From an uncultured Pelagibacteraceae bacterium (lineage in GTDB: Bacteria; Pseudomonadota; Alphaproteobacteria; Pelagibacterales; Pelagibacteraceae), in the NCBI GenBank assembly GCA_902563435.1, contig CACEXE010000005.1, positions 22,745-86,744 of the forward strand: a DNA stretch of 64,000 bases, written 5' to 3'. Under the pieces are notes generated by a model. It searched no databases, was not told the origin of the DNA, and saw nothing but the letters and a program-made list of their open reading frames with translations. How positions within the stretch are numbered: position 1 is the stretch's first letter; every line of letters begins with the position of its first letter. The translations under genes and the position numbers were made by a program. This document shows, piece after piece, positions 24,248 through 56,300 of this stretch.

Positions 24248-24745
24248 ATGAGTTGGACAGACGAAAAAGTTAACAAACTAAAGAGTCTTTGGGGTAAAGG
24301 CCAAACAGCCAGTCAAATTGCTGAAATAATTGGAGGAGTTAGTAGAAATGCAGTAATAGGAAAAGCACACAGATTAAACTTATCTGCAAAAATTAAAACA
24401 CGATCTGCTACATATCAGAATAATATTGGAACAATAACACAGGAAAATAAAACTATTAAAAAGGGAAGCAGAAAACATAGATTTAAGTCCTTACTTTTAG
24501 ACAAAAACTTTGAGCCAGCTAAAAATCTTCAGTTAGAAGATTTAAATGAGCACACATGTAAATATATGGAGGCTAATCCAGATGAAAAAGGCGCATCTTT
24601 CTGTGGAAGAAAAACTATCGAAAAATTTTCTTACTGCCCATTACACCTAATGATAGTTTTCCAGCCAAAAGGTAAAAAAGATGAGGTTGTAGAAAAAGAC
24701 GATGAGGTTCCTAAATTTATCGAAAAGAAGGTAAAATCAGCTTAG
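24248..24745 (+). CDS. gcrA: GcrA family cell cycle regulator
   Basis: MSWTDEKVNKLKSLWGKGQTASQIAEIIGGVSRNAVIGKAHRL. Confidence 0.93.
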   Translation: MSWTDEKVNKLKSLWGKGQTASQIAEIIGGVSRNAVIGKAHRLNLSAKIKTRSATYQNNIGTITQENKTIKKGSRKHRFKSLLLDKNFEPAKNLQLEDLNEHTCKYMEANPDEKGASFCGRKTIEKFSYCPLHLMIVFQPKGKKDEVVEKDDEVPKFIEKKVKSA

Positions 24746-30459: not shown

Positions 30460-31112
30460 AAAAAAGAAATAATATAATTACAGTAGCAATTGACTCGCCA
30501 GCTGCCGCAGGTGCAGGTACTCAAGCAAAATTGATATCAAAAAATTATAATTTATTTTATCTAGATACTGGTAAAATTTATAGATATATAGGTATGTTAA
30601 AACTTAAAAATCAAAAAAAATTTTCCTATAATTTGGTTAAGTATAAAATAGACAATATGAAATTAAGTTATTTAAAAAATAAAAGCTTACTTTCAAATGA
30701 TGTTTCTTTATCAGCAGCAAAGATTGCGAGAGATAAAAAAATTAGAGATATTGTTCATAAATTTCAGCAAAAATATGCATATAATCCTCCAAAAAAATAT
30801 AATGGCTCTGTTTTAGATGGAAGAGATATAATCACAGTACAATTAAAAAATGCTATGTTTAAATTTTTCATAACAGCAAGTGTTAAGGTAAGAGCAGAAA
30901 GAAGATATATGGAATACAAGAGCTTAAATAAAAAAATTACATATAAAGAAGTGCTTAAAAGCCTTAGAATCAGGGACAAATCAGATAAAGAGAGAAAATA
31001 TGGACCTCTAAAAAAAACAAAAGATTCTATCTTGATTAATACCACTAAATTAAGTAAGAAAGCCTGCTTTAAAAAGATAAAAGCAATAATGGACAAAAAA
31101 TTAATTAATTAA
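30456..31112 (+). CDS. cmk: Cytidylate kinase
   Basis: IAVDSPAAAGAGTQAK-type P-loop region, LDTGKIYR, LDGRDI; between aroA and rpsA. Confidence 0.92.
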   Translation: MKKRNNIITVAIDSPAAAGAGTQAKLISKNYNLFYLDTGKIYRYIGMLKLKNQKKFSYNLVKYKIDNMKLSYLKNKSLLSNDVSLSAAKIARDKKIRDIVHKFQQKYAYNPPKKYNGSVLDGRDIITVQLKNAMFKFFITASVKVRAERRYMEYKSLNKKITYKEVLKSLRIRDKSDKERKYGPLKKTKDSILINTTKLSKKACFKKIKAIMDKKLIN

Positions 31113-32854
31113 TGGAAATTTATAAAGACCTATCATCTCCTGCTTCTCAAGAGTTTCAAAAACTACTTAGCAGCCAATTATCTAAAAATAAAATTGAAGA
31201 AGGGAAAATTATAGAAGGTAAGGTTACGAAAATAACAAGTAAATACCTTTTCCTCTTTATACAAGGGTTAAAAAGTGAACCAGTGATTGATATCAACGAA
31301 ATGAAGATGATTGGTGTATCAGAAGAAATTAAAGAAGGTGATACGATACCTGTATTGTTAGAGAAGATTGAAGATAAAAATGGAGATGTAGTCGTTTCAG
31401 CACAAAAAGCTCAAAAAATTAAAGGCTGGAATAAGCTTGTTAAATGTTACGAAAATAATGAGCTAATTAATGGAAAAATTACTCAAAAAACAAAAGGTGG
31501 TGTAATTGTAGAGCACATAGAAACCGGCTCCCTTATGTTTTGTCCGGGATCTCAGATTTCAGATAAGCCTATGAAAAACATTGATCATCTAATTGGTGTT
31601 GAACAAAAATTTGCTCTAATCAAACTTGATATGGTTAGAGGAAATAGTGTTGTATCAAGAAGACAGGTAGTTTCGTCAAACAAAAAGGAAGATAAAGTCA
31701 AAATAATAGAAAAATTCAAAGTTGGAGATATTATAAAAGATGCAGTTGTTAAGGGATATTCTTCTTTCGGTTGTTTTTTCGAGGTAACTACTCCTGAAGG
31801 AACCTTAGACACTCTTTGCCATCTACAAGAGATAAGTTACAGTAGAGTTAATCATCCCGATGAAGTTTTTAACATAGGTGAAAAGCATAATTTAAAAATA
31901 ATTTCAATTGATATGGAAAAATTACAAGTTGGATGCTCTCTTAAACAATTATCGCCAGATCCATTCGAACACATATCTAACTACCAAATAGGAAATAAAT
32001 ATAAAGTAAAAGTTGTAAAAATTGCAGACTATGGATGTTTCTGCGAATTAGAGCCAGGACTAAGTAGTTTGTTACATAGTAGTGAAATTAGTTGGACTAA
32101 GAAAAATATTTCACCAAAGAAGATATTTAATGTCGGAGATCAAATAGACTGTGTAATTACAGAGATTGATAAAGATAAGAGAAGAGTTGCTATTTCACAT
32201 AGGCTCACGCAAGACAATCCTTACACTATGCTTGAAAATAACTATCCTGTGGGGTCTGATATTGATGGAATAGTAAATAATTCTAATGAATATGCAATAT
32301 ACTTAAAATTAGCAGACTTTGATATTGATGGCTTCTTACATTCAAATGACCTTTCATACACTGGTAAACCTGAAGAGGAACTTAAAAAATACAAAAAAGG
32401 TGACAAGCTTAAAGTCAAAGTTTTGGAAATAAAATTAAGCGAACAAAAAGTAAGAGTTGGCTTAAAACAATTACAAAATGATCCTTTTGATTGGTTTAAA
32501 AATAAAAAATTAGAAGACATAATTACTGTTAAAGTTATTTCATCTGATAATAAAGGTTTGATTGTCAAACCTGAAGGGAGTGATCTTGAAATCTTAATCA
32601 AGAAATCTCAAATAGCAATGAGTAGTACAGATGCAAGACCTTCAAGATTTGTAGGTGGCGAACGAATAGATGCAGCCATATCTGAATTAAACTTCGAAAA
32701 AAGAAAAGTATCATTAAGCATTAAATTGCTTGAAGAAATAATGAATGCTAAAGCTATTAAAGAACATTCAAGTCCTTTAAGTGGAAAAAATCTCCCATTC
32801 TCTTCACTTTCTGAGCAATTGGACGATAAAAAAAAGAATAAGGACACTGAATAA
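31112..32854 (+). CDS. rpsA: 30S ribosomal protein S1
   Basis: Multiple S1 RNA-binding repeats, position after cmk. Confidence 0.96.
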   Translation: MEIYKDLSSPASQEFQKLLSSQLSKNKIEEGKIIEGKVTKITSKYLFLFIQGLKSEPVIDINEMKMIGVSEEIKEGDTIPVLLEKIEDKNGDVVVSAQKAQKIKGWNKLVKCYENNELINGKITQKTKGGVIVEHIETGSLMFCPGSQISDKPMKNIDHLIGVEQKFALIKLDMVRGNSVVSRRQVVSSNKKEDKVKIIEKFKVGDIIKDAVVKGYSSFGCFFEVTTPEGTLDTLCHLQEISYSRVNHPDEVFNIGEKHNLKIISIDMEKLQVGCSLKQLSPDPFEHISNYQIGNKYKVKVVKIADYGCFCELEPGLSSLLHSSEISWTKKNISPKKIFNVGDQIDCVITEIDKDKRRVAISHRLTQDNPYTMLENNYPVGSDIDGIVNNSNEYAIYLKLADFDIDGFLHSNDLSYTGKPEEELKKYKKGDKLKVKVLEIKLSEQKVRVGLKQLQNDPFDWFKNKKLEDIITVKVISSDNKGLIVKPEGSDLEILIKKSQIAMSSTDARPSRFVGGERIDAAISELNFEKRKVSLSIKLLEEIMNAKAIKEHSSPLSGKNLPFSSLSEQLDDKKKNKDTE

Positions 32855-37373: not shown

Positions 37374-38595
37374 AAAAAAACTAGATTTATCTCTAGGAAG
37401 AACTTTTAATCTCTTAAAAAAACTGGGAAATCCACAAGATAAATTAAAAAATGTCATTACAGTTGTTGGCACTAATGCTAAAGCAAGCATGTGCTATAGT
37501 TTAAAGTCAATACTTAACCAAGCTGGACTTAAAACTAACCTTTATACTTCTCCCCACCTTCTCTCTTATACAGAAAGATACATTTTTGAAGATAAAGAAA
37601 TCGATGAAGAAGATTTAATAGAATTACTGACAGATGTTGAAAAAACTTTAGGAGATGACAATGCAACATTATTTGAAATTTTAACGTGTGCATTTTTAAA
37701 ATATGCTGAAAATTTCAAGGATAATATTAATATTATAGAAGCAGGATTATTTCATCAATTTGACAGTACAAATGTATTTAAGGAAAATTTAATGACGCTC
37801 ATTGGTGTCATCCATAATGATCACTTTCAATGGCTTGAAAATAAATCAATTGAGGGGGTAATATATGAAAAAACAGCTAAGCTTTTAAACTCAAATATAT
37901 TTATTAATAAACAAGTCAATAATGAAATAAGAGATAAAATAGAAAAATCATTGGAAAAAAATACGTCGAATAAATATTTTTTTGGAAAAGATTTTAATAT
38001 TGCAAAGTTCAAGAACGGATTTATTCAATATCGAGATCATTTAGGAGAATTAGTATTACCTGAACCAAGTATTCTTGGAGATCATCAGCTTTATAATATT
38101 AGTACCTCAATTGCTGCATCAAGAAAGATTTTTAATATTAAAGATGAAAATATTATAAATGGTGTCAAAAATATTTCATTAAAAGCAAGACTTGAAGAAA
38201 TAAAATCTGGTAAATTAAAAGATATTGCTGGAAATAATAAACTTGTAATAGATGGTGGTCATAACATTAGCGCAAGTTTTTCTATTGCTAAATGGATTAA
38301 AAATCAAAATGAAGAGGTAAACCTTATCGTAGGTATGATGAAAGACAAGGAACATGTAGAATTTATAAAAGCTTTTGAAAATATAGTAAATTCAATTACT
38401 TTAATCGATATTCCTAATCAGGATGGAGCAATATCAAAGGAAGATTTTAAAAAAAAGTTAGATAATTCAAAATTAAATCTAAAACTTTCTAATGGCATTG
38501 AAGAAAGTATAAAATCGTTATCAAAAAATGAAAACACTATTATACTGTGTGTTGGTTCGCTATATCTTGCTGGAGAAATTTTAAGCTTAAATTAG
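37330..38595 (+). CDS. folC: Bifunctional folylpolyglutamate/dihydrofolate synthase
   Basis: VVGTNAKASMCYSLKSIL, LYTSPHLLSYTER, DGGHNISA; follows accD. Confidence 0.9.
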   Translation: MKLQKLISKLEKHHKKKLDLSLGRTFNLLKKLGNPQDKLKNVITVVGTNAKASMCYSLKSILNQAGLKTNLYTSPHLLSYTERYIFEDKEIDEEDLIELLTDVEKTLGDDNATLFEILTCAFLKYAENFKDNINIIEAGLFHQFDSTNVFKENLMTLIGVIHNDHFQWLENKSIEGVIYEKTAKLLNSNIFINKQVNNEIRDKIEKSLEKNTSNKYFFGKDFNIAKFKNGFIQYRDHLGELVLPEPSILGDHQLYNISTSIAASRKIFNIKDENIINGVKNISLKARLEEIKSGKLKDIAGNNKLVIDGGHNISASFSIAKWIKNQNEEVNLIVGMMKDKEHVEFIKAFENIVNSITLIDIPNQDGAISKEDFKKKLDNSKLNLKLSNGIEESIKSLSKNENTIILCVGSLYLAGEILSLN

Positions 38596-38702
38596 ATATT
38601 TTCTTTAAGCCAGTCCTCTAAATCAGTTTGACTTGTCATTCCAACTTTTGTTGCTTTTAGTTCACCATTTACCACCAAGATTGTAGTGGGTATACCTCTA
38701 AC

Positions 38703-38750
38703 TCCTATTTTGAAGACTAGTCCCCCTCTCTTTTGAAAGGGGGACTAGCC
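38703..38750 (-). repeat. 48-nt hairpin insert 2 in trxA: C TAG TCCCCCTTTC AAAA GAGAGGGGGACTAG stem-loop, ends ATAGGA
   Basis: 14-bp stem 38735-38748 / 38717-38730 (one T-G wobble) with AAAA loop; in-frame TAG in the stem base; flanked by Gly codons GGG (38751-38753) and GGA (38703-38705). Confidence 0.85.
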
Positions 38751-38861
38751 CCCGAATTGGGTCGGGGTGTTAGGGTGATTGTCGATATTCATTGCACCAA
38801 AATCAATATCGGTCATCTCATTTGAGACCTTCTCCACAATGGGAGTATATGCTTTACATGG

Positions 38862-38899
38862 ACCTATAACCCCCCACCTCTAAAGGTGGGGGGTCAACT
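38862..38899 (-). repeat. 38-nt hairpin insert 1 in trxA: TG ACCCCCCACCT TTAG AGGTGGGGGGT stem-loop, ends ATAGGT
   Basis: 11-bp perfect GC-rich stem (13 bp counting one G-T and one T-A at the base) with a 4-nt loop; in-frame TGA at stem base; flanked by Gly codons GGA (38900-38902) and GGT (38862-38864). Confidence 0.85.
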
Positions 38900-39062
38900 T
38901 CCACACCAATCAGCCTCAAATTTGAGGCAGAATGGTTTTGAATTTTTTAAAACTTTTTCATTAAAGTTTTCATCTGTTATTTCTAAAATAGCCATATAAT
39001 TTATATAAATTAATTTATCTTATTTTCAATAGACAAAATATTAACTATTTAATACTTATACA

Positions 39063-40496
39063 CTAAACATTCTCATACTTTTTTTGGATAGACATTGCAT
39101 ATGTATTAAATTCATCTAAGAGAGCTAATTTTTCGTTATCATTTTCATTAGTGTATTTTTCTCTTAAAGTATCAATTTCATTATATAATGTAGGTATTGT
39201 CCACCATTTCTCTTGCCTTTCACTTAATATTCTTTTTGCAATCTCTCTTCTTATTGATTTATACATTGTCTCTGGCAAAACTTCTGGGGCCTCTTGAAAT
39301 ATAATTTTTTTACCAAACCCAACTAATCTATCGTCATCAAATTTATCTAACAAATTTAATTTTTCTTTCCATGGTGCTGCGTGCCAAGCTGGGAAAAGAG
39401 CTGTATCTTTGTTTGAGGTAAATTTAGTATAAATGCTTTCTTCTGCGTATATATCTTCTTGCGATTTTGATTGCTCTTTTTCTTCAGCAACTTCCCTTAA
39501 GGCTGTTAATATATTTTGAGAAAATTGTTCATTATTTTGAACAAATTCTGCTCTTTTTTTAATTACGTTTTTATCAAGTTTGTTATAAGGCTCAGCATTT
39601 ATTCCATATTTTGCATCAATTATAATAGGTGCTTTATTTGCACGTATAGTTCTTAAAAACTTAGGTGTTTTTTTCATCTCAACTTTTAATTCATTTATTG
39701 ATTTATTTATTAAAGGCTGTATTTCAGTTCTCAAATCAATGGAGTAATACCATCCTTGGTAAATTGGGTGCATACAATGTTTTGGATGTAGTGGTACAAC
39801 TAAATGAAGTCTCGATTTACCATAATAATATTCATTCAAAGTAACAATTTCTCCTTTTTTCATTATAGTTTCTGTATCAGATTTATTTGCAGTTCTTAAA
39901 AATGAATCCCAAGTATGCTCTTGTTTATTTTTAACAATCTTTAAAATTTTTGCAGTTAATTCGGCATCAGCAAGTGCTGAGTGAGCATCACTTGCATCAA
40001 TTCCTTGCATTTGAGCTAAGGATGCTAATTTAAATACAGGATTATTTTTTTCATTAATTTCTGTTTCTAATATTGTAGGATCAACTGCATAAGCAGCTCT
40101 TGCAATATTTATACCATCATGTCTTTTATTGGGTGCTGCATTAGTAATATAAGGATATCTAATATTTTTAAAAAACTCTTTCCTTATCATCTCTTCATCA
40201 AAATTAAGGCTACTCCAACCTAAAAATATTGCAGGACTCCATTTTTTAAATATTTTTTCAACTTCCCCCAACATTTGATAATGACTTAAGTTTGTTTGAG
40301 TTAGTTGTTTTATCGATGTCTTATTGACTATTAAGGCCATGGCCTGAAATATCTCTCCCTCAGGAAGACTACACCTTAAATTAAATCGATCTTTCTCTTT
40401 AAAATTTTCGTCAACTAAAATTCCCCCAATTTCAATTATACTTCCGAATGAAGTTGATGCAGAGGAGGACTCCACATCCCATATTGCTAAATTCAT
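39063..40496 (-). CDS. sbcB: Exodeoxyribonuclease I
   Basis: DnaQ-like IWDVESSSASTSFGSIIEIGGILVDENF, GWSSLNFDEEMIRKEFF, DAHSALADAELTAKI; ExoI C-terminal domain. Confidence 0.85.
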   Translation of the reverse strand: MNLAIWDVESSSASTSFGSIIEIGGILVDENFKEKDRFNLRCSLPEGEIFQAMALIVNKTSIKQLTQTNLSHYQMLGEVEKIFKKWSPAIFLGWSSLNFDEEMIRKEFFKNIRYPYITNAAPNKRHDGINIARAAYAVDPTILETEINEKNNPVFKLASLAQMQGIDASDAHSALADAELTAKILKIVKNKQEHTWDSFLRTANKSDTETIMKKGEIVTLNEYYYGKSRLHLVVPLHPKHCMHPIYQGWYYSIDLRTEIQPLINKSINELKVEMKKTPKFLRTIRANKAPIIIDAKYGINAEPYNKLDKNVIKKRAEFVQNNEQFSQNILTALREVAEEKEQSKSQEDIYAEESIYTKFTSNKDTALFPAWHAAPWKEKLNLLDKFDDDRLVGFGKKIIFQEAPEVLPETMYKSIRREIAKRILSERQEKWWTIPTLYNEIDTLREKYTNENDNEKLALLDEFNTYAMSIQKKYENV

Positions 40497-56084: not shown

Positions 56085-56300
56085 TTAAAACCTAAAAATA
56101 ATTCTTCCTTTTGTCAAATCATAAGGTGTTACTTCCACTGTTACATTATCACCTTGAAGAACTCTAATCCTATTCTTCCTTAACTTTCCAGCTGTGTGAG
56201 CTGTAACAATATGATTATTTTCAAGCTTTACTCGGAACATGGCGTTAGGTAATAAATCGATTACTTTACCTTTAAATTCCAATAAATCTTGTTTCGACAA
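56085..56300 (-). CDS. infA: Translation initiation factor IF-1
   Basis: [61 protein letters not shown]. Confidence 0.96.

Follow-up and report, generated by a model that had tools for sequence, protein, structure and literature searches.

To our knowledge, ribosomal bypassing, in which the ribosome skips a stretch of mRNA and resumes translation beyond it, has until now been described only for a single phage gene and in certain yeast mitochondria. Here we analyse a 64,000-nt stretch of DNA from an uncultured Pelagibacteraceae bacterium (hereafter the window), in which the thioredoxin gene trxA is split by two hairpin inserts, and compare these with inserts in other SAR11 genomes. As judged by analogy with the described systems, the inserts are probably byp-like elements that would be skipped during translation by bypassing.

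In the phage example, T4 gene 60, a 50-nt gap follows a Gly take-off codon, a stem-loop with a stop codon forms at the take-off site, the landing codon matches the take-off tRNA, and translation resumes in another frame (PMC5009743, PMC11194080). The SAR11 inserts resemble this arrangement: they too leave a gap of some 50 nt, mostly after a Gly codon, and have a stem-loop that often contains a stop or lies close to one, a landing triplet that fits the take-off tRNA, and a resumed frame that can differ from the first. All insert lengths also fit sliding, being below 56 nt, the distance up to which ribosomes on T4 gene 60 slide with high processivity (PMC11194080). Unlike gene 60, however, the inserts occur in bacterial chromosomal genes, in many copies and in genes unrelated to each other.

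The mitochondrial byps of Magnusiomyces capitatus (81 inserts in 12 genes) are likewise numerous short inserts that disrupt the reading frame and whose removal gives back conserved proteins. Imperfectly matched codons, with 2-of-3 pairing, have been reported for them (PMC5009743). The resemblance is one of description, and the SAR11 inserts differ in belonging to a free-living bacterium, with few copies per genome and in one chromosomal region. Hairpins and mobility, the latter putative for the SAR11 inserts, are further points in common; the Magnusiomyces elements are reportedly covered in a 2015 review by Nosek. Two further kinds of element are relevant. Rickettsia palindromic elements are small palindromes within alphaproteobacterial genes, as are the inserts, and are translated in frame into protein. 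Repetitive extragenic palindromic (REP) sequences and the palindromic miniature inverted-repeat transposable elements derived from IS200-IS605 are also short multicopy GC-rich hairpins, but they are mostly intergenic, whereas the SAR11 inserts are intragenic, have a single orientation and preserve the coding frame when removed.

The split trxA gene

The window lies in contig C5 of a 1.18-Mb genome, which is 78% complete and, among named organisms, is closest to Pelagibacteraceae (SAR11). Joining the three minus-strand coding blocks of trxA in silico (Table 1) gives a protein of 105 aa, MAILEITDENFNEKV...WCG-PCK...TQFG-VRGIPT...ENI, which covers the whole Pfam Thioredoxin domain (E = 2e-25). 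The initial annotation had described exactly this gene, with inserts of 38 and 48 nt, and had correctly given the Gly codons before them (GGA and GGG) and the triplets after which reading resumes (GGT and GGA). Its placing of a stop at the base of an 11-14 bp hairpin in both inserts needs amending for insert 2, where the stem is 19 bp long, starts at the take-off GGG and contains the TAG within it.

In a scan of the window, which has a G+C content of 29%, the hairpins of inserts 1 and 2 scored 32.5 and 43 and were the only ones above 24; when the window was shuffled 30 times with its dinucleotides preserved, a score of 30 was reached only once. Since shuffled sequence almost never gives such a hairpin, a chance origin of the two is excluded. 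Folded as RNA together with their take-off and landing codons, insert 1 has a minimum free energy of -25.6 kcal/mol (z -4.4) and insert 2 of -35.4 kcal/mol (z -7.3).

No second trxA-type gene, intact or otherwise, was found in the available sequence of this 78%-complete genome, in which the other matches to the thioredoxin fold are more distant family members. A hairpin scan over 1.10 of the 1.18 Mb found the trxA inserts to be the sole such elements. The remaining strong hairpins appear to be intergenic, terminator-like or within open frames. One of these, a strong GC-rich hairpin (CTCCTCTCATTTGAGAGGGGA, L078:8865-8894), lies within a continuous open frame and, in contrast to the inserts, appears to be translated as part of it.

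A family of related inserts in SAR11 genomes

Comparative searches found 32 inserts in 22 SAR11 genomes, all in Pelagibacteraceae chromosomes, at 12 sites in six genes identified with Pfam: trxA (six sites), infA (two sites), rpsA, gcrA, an exonuclease I-like gene and a gene of the histone-deacetylase fold. At each site, removal in silico restores a protein of normal length. The relatives' trxA locus (in the order exonuclease - trxA - folC - accD - trpA) contains intact and singly interrupted orthologues. The orthologue of AG-414-M02 (80% identity, L005) is intact and insert-free. That of AG-404-C02 (G325) has the second insert only, and its neighbouring exonuclease gene and infA are interrupted likewise. 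In AG-439-K19, AG-919-F21, AG-913-O23 and G351 there is only an insert at WCG/PCK (a slash marks the insertion point). Two inserts each, as in the window, are found in trxA of G093 (L321), trxA of G808 (L327) and infA of G182 (L320); the paired inserts of trxA genes belong to different classes.

Covariance models made from these inserts and run on whole genomes found more, and gcrA was added by searching for split genes through homology, with no account taken of hairpins. Model R1 had a match in 14 of 399 genomes of the genus, namely 13 carriers and one terminator-like match, and model R2 had convincing matches in 6 of 397 genomes of the family, all within the genus and the same six genes; for both models, insert 2 is the best match in the window's genome. 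These carrier counts are lower bounds, because the inserts of at least four more carriers (G326, G327, G328 and G351) are too diverged for R1. Weaker matches (L332 and L402-L408) proved to be terminators, 5' leaders or continuous coding sequence.

The shortest insert, at DFW/AEW in trxA of G093 (L321:1676-1706, minus strand), has 28 nt, a stem of about 5 bp, the take-off codon TGG and the landing triplet TGC. It is unlike the main class, and short inserts with such weak hairpins would escape model searches.

The inserts share a layout, in which a hairpin, mostly with a 4-nt loop, usually starts at the last intact codon or no more than a few bases from it and is followed by an AU-rich single strand and the landing triplet. 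Inserts of the main class have the form GGGSGCTAG-stem-CTAGTC-spacer-GGA. Those of a second class, in trxA of G808 and G243, start with TGATAG after Cys codons, at two different Cys positions; the remaining inserts are more diverged. Nine inserts folded singly gave z scores from -3.1 to -7.3. In an alignment of 13 related inserts, 94.6% of stem cells are paired and nine of the 16 pairs have changed on both sides, a level that none of 500 shuffles reached. The CUAG/CUAG found in most copies, for instance, is replaced by CUUG/CAAG in G312 and by CUGG/CCAG in G808. One G-U pair on the sense strand is retained in 12 of the 13. Since related elements sit in different genes, we infer from their sequences a dispersed family that moves or once moved.

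Insert lengths range from 28 to 53 nt and follow no fixed frame, with remainders of 0, 1 and 2 after division by three in 5, 10 and 17 inserts, respectively. Unlike Rickettsia palindromic elements, therefore, 27 of 32 have lengths that are not multiples of three, and 31 contain an in-frame stop. This stop directly follows the take-off codon in only six inserts (a further difference from T4 gene 60), lies one codon later in 17 and is farther away in eight. Because of this variation, an early stop is not a core part of the elements; that of the main class stems from its conserved CTAG. The features initially listed as common to both window inserts (early stop, Gly codon and ATAGGN end) are thus common in the family but not universal. 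All 32 inserts are in the sense orientation, which speaks against unselected insertion.

The interrupted genes are under purifying selection

A family of dispersed hairpins could consist of recent palindromic mobile elements that killed the genes they entered, as had been considered for trxA. Stops or frameshifts in most copies, the presence of related elements at many sites and the variation in presence between species would all fit this explanation. We compared nonsynonymous (dN) and synonymous (dS) substitution rates downstream of the inserts. In rpsA of G621 and G486 (403 codons) dN is 0.14 and dS 2.4, and in the exonuclease I-like gene (378 codons) dN is 0.08-0.21, with dS from 1.4 to saturation. 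Close pairs gave the same picture, with dN of 0.03 and dS of 0.3-0.5 in the deacetylase-fold gene, and dN of 0.01-0.02 and dS of about 0.33 in trxA of G326, G327 and G328. The hallmarks of pseudogenes, relaxed selection and additional lesions, are absent, and the open frames downstream extend up to 403 aa.

Furthermore, the translation initiation factor IF-1 is essential in the bacteria studied, and the sole infA gene found is split in six genomes (G182, G077, G129, G247, G298 and G325), in G182 by two inserts. Similarly, rpsA is split in two genomes, each at least 91% complete. By these substitution patterns, the interrupted genes are kept by purifying selection and are not dead. Beyond inserts whose sites are common to diverged species, the ratio of dN to dS is much lower than 1, which, with the split infA and rpsA genes, the uniform sense orientation and the lack of any other lesion, makes gene-killing insertion very improbable; on the comparative sequence evidence it is refuted for the family, although the dispersal and relatedness of the elements stand. 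Purifying selection and the splitting of an essential single-copy infA also imply that each carrier must make the uninterrupted protein.

Two other explanations were weighed. The first is an artefact of single-cell amplification or assembly, given that at least part of the carriers appear to be single-cell genomes and that chimeras from multiple displacement amplification make inverted repeats. Such chimeras, however, would neither restore reading frames nor favour one orientation, and the same sites, homologous elements and covarying stems recur in independent genomes, including assemblies that are 91-97% complete. By this recurrence the explanation is refuted, and we give it next to no credence. 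The second is a reversible DNA element, whose hairpin is precisely lost from the DNA in some cells, which then supply the protein. Palindromes that lie between short repeats tend to be deleted precisely, and insert-free orthologues exist (L005), both of which would favour this scenario. Nevertheless, the inserts have been kept, with covarying stems, in diverged species, every single cell has a constant need of IF-1, and the sense-only orientation would be left without explanation, so that we consider reversible loss a far-fetched alternative.

Landing triplets match the take-off tRNA

The take-off codons are GGG, GGA, GGT, AGG, CGG, TGT and TGG (Gly, Arg, Cys and Trp, a wider range than in T4 gene 60), and the landing triplets are GGA, GGT, GGC, AGA, AGC, TGA, TTT and TGC. 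Strict codon identity between the two does not hold. However, the take-off tRNA can pair with the landing triplet at two or more of the three positions in all 20 distinct cases, and at all three in ten of them. The mean match is 2.5, versus 0.92 at neighbouring offsets, and none of 100,000 permutations was as high, though a preference of the element for G-rich target sites would raise the match too. The tRNA set of the host agrees with these assignments (Gly GCC/UCC, Arg UCG/UCU, Cys GCA, Trp CCA). At an Arg site, an AGG take-off codon is paired with an AGA landing triplet, from which it follows that the rule is tRNA matching and not Gly as such. The matched Gly codons proposed initially are thus better described as one case of tRNA matching, which extends to Arg, Cys and Trp and at some landings to two of three positions. 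As re-pairing of the peptidyl-tRNA needs such complementarity, the match supports bypassing.

The proposed course of events would be as follows. The ribosome would decode the take-off codon, the last before the insert and mostly a Gly GGN, and would stall there, with the following codon held in a very stable hairpin, often near a stop. The peptidyl-tRNA would then release the mRNA, the ribosome would slide past the hairpin and the AU-rich spacer, and the same tRNA would re-pair with the landing triplet through at least two base pairs of three. Decoding could restart in any frame and would yield a protein of normal length.

The main rival to this is removal of the insert from the RNA. In this case, the 28-53 nt hairpin would be cut from the mRNA at or near the Gs at its ends, and the ends would be ligated by some enzyme or by the RNA itself; the inserts would then be a new class of RtcB-independent hairpin mini-introns that spread within essential SAR11 genes. 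The evidence for working genes, and indeed most of the facts, would be explained equally well. The hairpin would bring both ends together, and in 31 of 32 inserts each end allows a junction that follows a G (GG/...AG/ or similar), the exception being the G808 insert at EWC/GPC, which has no G before its 3' end. On the other hand, a search for RNA ligases, limited to RtcB, found this enzyme absent from all 20 of 20 carriers. An Rfam search of the window returned nothing at the inserts and no intron family, and lengths of 28-53 nt are far below those of known self-splicing introns. The match between landing triplet and take-off tRNA would not be expected. We therefore consider RNA-level removal, which the initial annotation had also listed, less likely than bypassing, and such mini-introns would be an unlikely, if serious, alternative.

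Several points, besides the caveat to the permutation test, nonetheless weigh against bypassing. Ten of the 20 distinct landings match at only two positions (for example, GGT to AGC in three genomes, and TGT to TTT), which is weak by T4 standards, and the G at both insert ends could stem from the element's choice of target sites instead of from a need for pairing. The G808 insert at VRG/IPT has no in-frame stop. T4 gene 60 needs a nascent-peptide signal, and inspection revealed no evident upstream peptide common to the six genes. The ribosome must also unwind a GC-rich stem of 14-19 bp, and the highly expressed rpsA would demand a high efficiency of bypassing. Loss of the ribosomal protein bL9 is not the cause, since bL9 is present in the window's genome.

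The byp-like reading put forward initially nevertheless agrees with all of the comparative evidence, and we infer skipping by the ribosome rather than cutting of the RNA. In the open-access literature we found no prior report of bypassing in SAR11 or of inserts of this kind there, with subscription papers and preprints mostly uncovered. So far as that literature shows, the inserts are best explained as the first byp-like family found in bacterial chromosomes. If this is true, bypassing would be a general capability of bacteria, used by very abundant ocean bacteria within the genes for IF-1 and ribosomal protein S1. The family would provide natural variants with which to dissect what bypassing needs (stop, nascent peptide and codon matching), and would show how streamlined genomes can retain small dispersed RNA elements. 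Gene callers break the interrupted genes, and conserved or essential SAR11 genes can thus appear truncated or missing.

Genomic clustering and additional observations

The six interrupted genes span only 40 kb (52.8-92.8 kb of contig 1 in G325), although the model searches covered whole genomes. In the window, gcrA lies at 24.2, rpsA at 31.1, trxA at 38.6, the exonuclease gene at 39.1 and infA at 56.1 kb. The exonuclease I-like gene is upstream of trxA, and folC lies convergently on the other side. Local spread, or exchange of the segment between strains, would explain the clustering.

Table 1. Coordinates of the trxA blocks, inserts and other relevant genes in the window
Feature	Position	Strand	Remarks
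trxA coding block 1	38900..38995	-	Codons 1-32, last ...WCG; take-off codon GGA 38902-38900
Insert 1	38862..38899	-	38 nt; in-frame TGA; hairpin 38896-38867 (13 bp, 4-nt loop); 3' end ATAGGT
Landing triplet of insert 1	38864-38862	-	GGT
trxA coding block 2	38751..38861	-	PCKAYT...TQFG; take-off codon GGG 38753-38751
Insert 2	38703..38750	-	48 nt; GGC TAG, long hairpin, AU-rich spacer UUCAAAAUA
Landing triplet of insert 2	38705-38703	-	GGA
Predicted take-off stem-loop, insert 2	38712..38753	-	19 bp, loop AAAA; begins at take-off codon
trxA coding block 3	38592..38702	-	VRGIPT...ENI and stop
gcrA	24248..24745	+	Intact; G621 orthologue with insert at NAVIG/KAHRL
rpsA (ribosomal protein S1)	31112..32854	+	Intact; G621 and G486 orthologues with insert at VRG/NAC
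Exonuclease I-like gene	39063..40496	-	Intact; G325, G531, G103 and G243 orthologues with insert at WSNIG/FDDEM
infA (IF-1)	56088..56300	-	Intact; orthologues in seven genomes with one or two inserts

Viral sequences were searched as well. The pattern CCCCTN{4,20}GGGGNNTAGTC retrieved mostly unrelated hairpins from viral contigs, in which more specific insert patterns gave no match or one chance match, and no insert was found in phage records. In AG-414-M02, the genome with the intact trxA orthologue, a truncated rpsA (333 aa) is fused directly to an exonuclease gene that has no N-terminus (L005:698-2934); this fusion is either a deletion or an amplification chimera.
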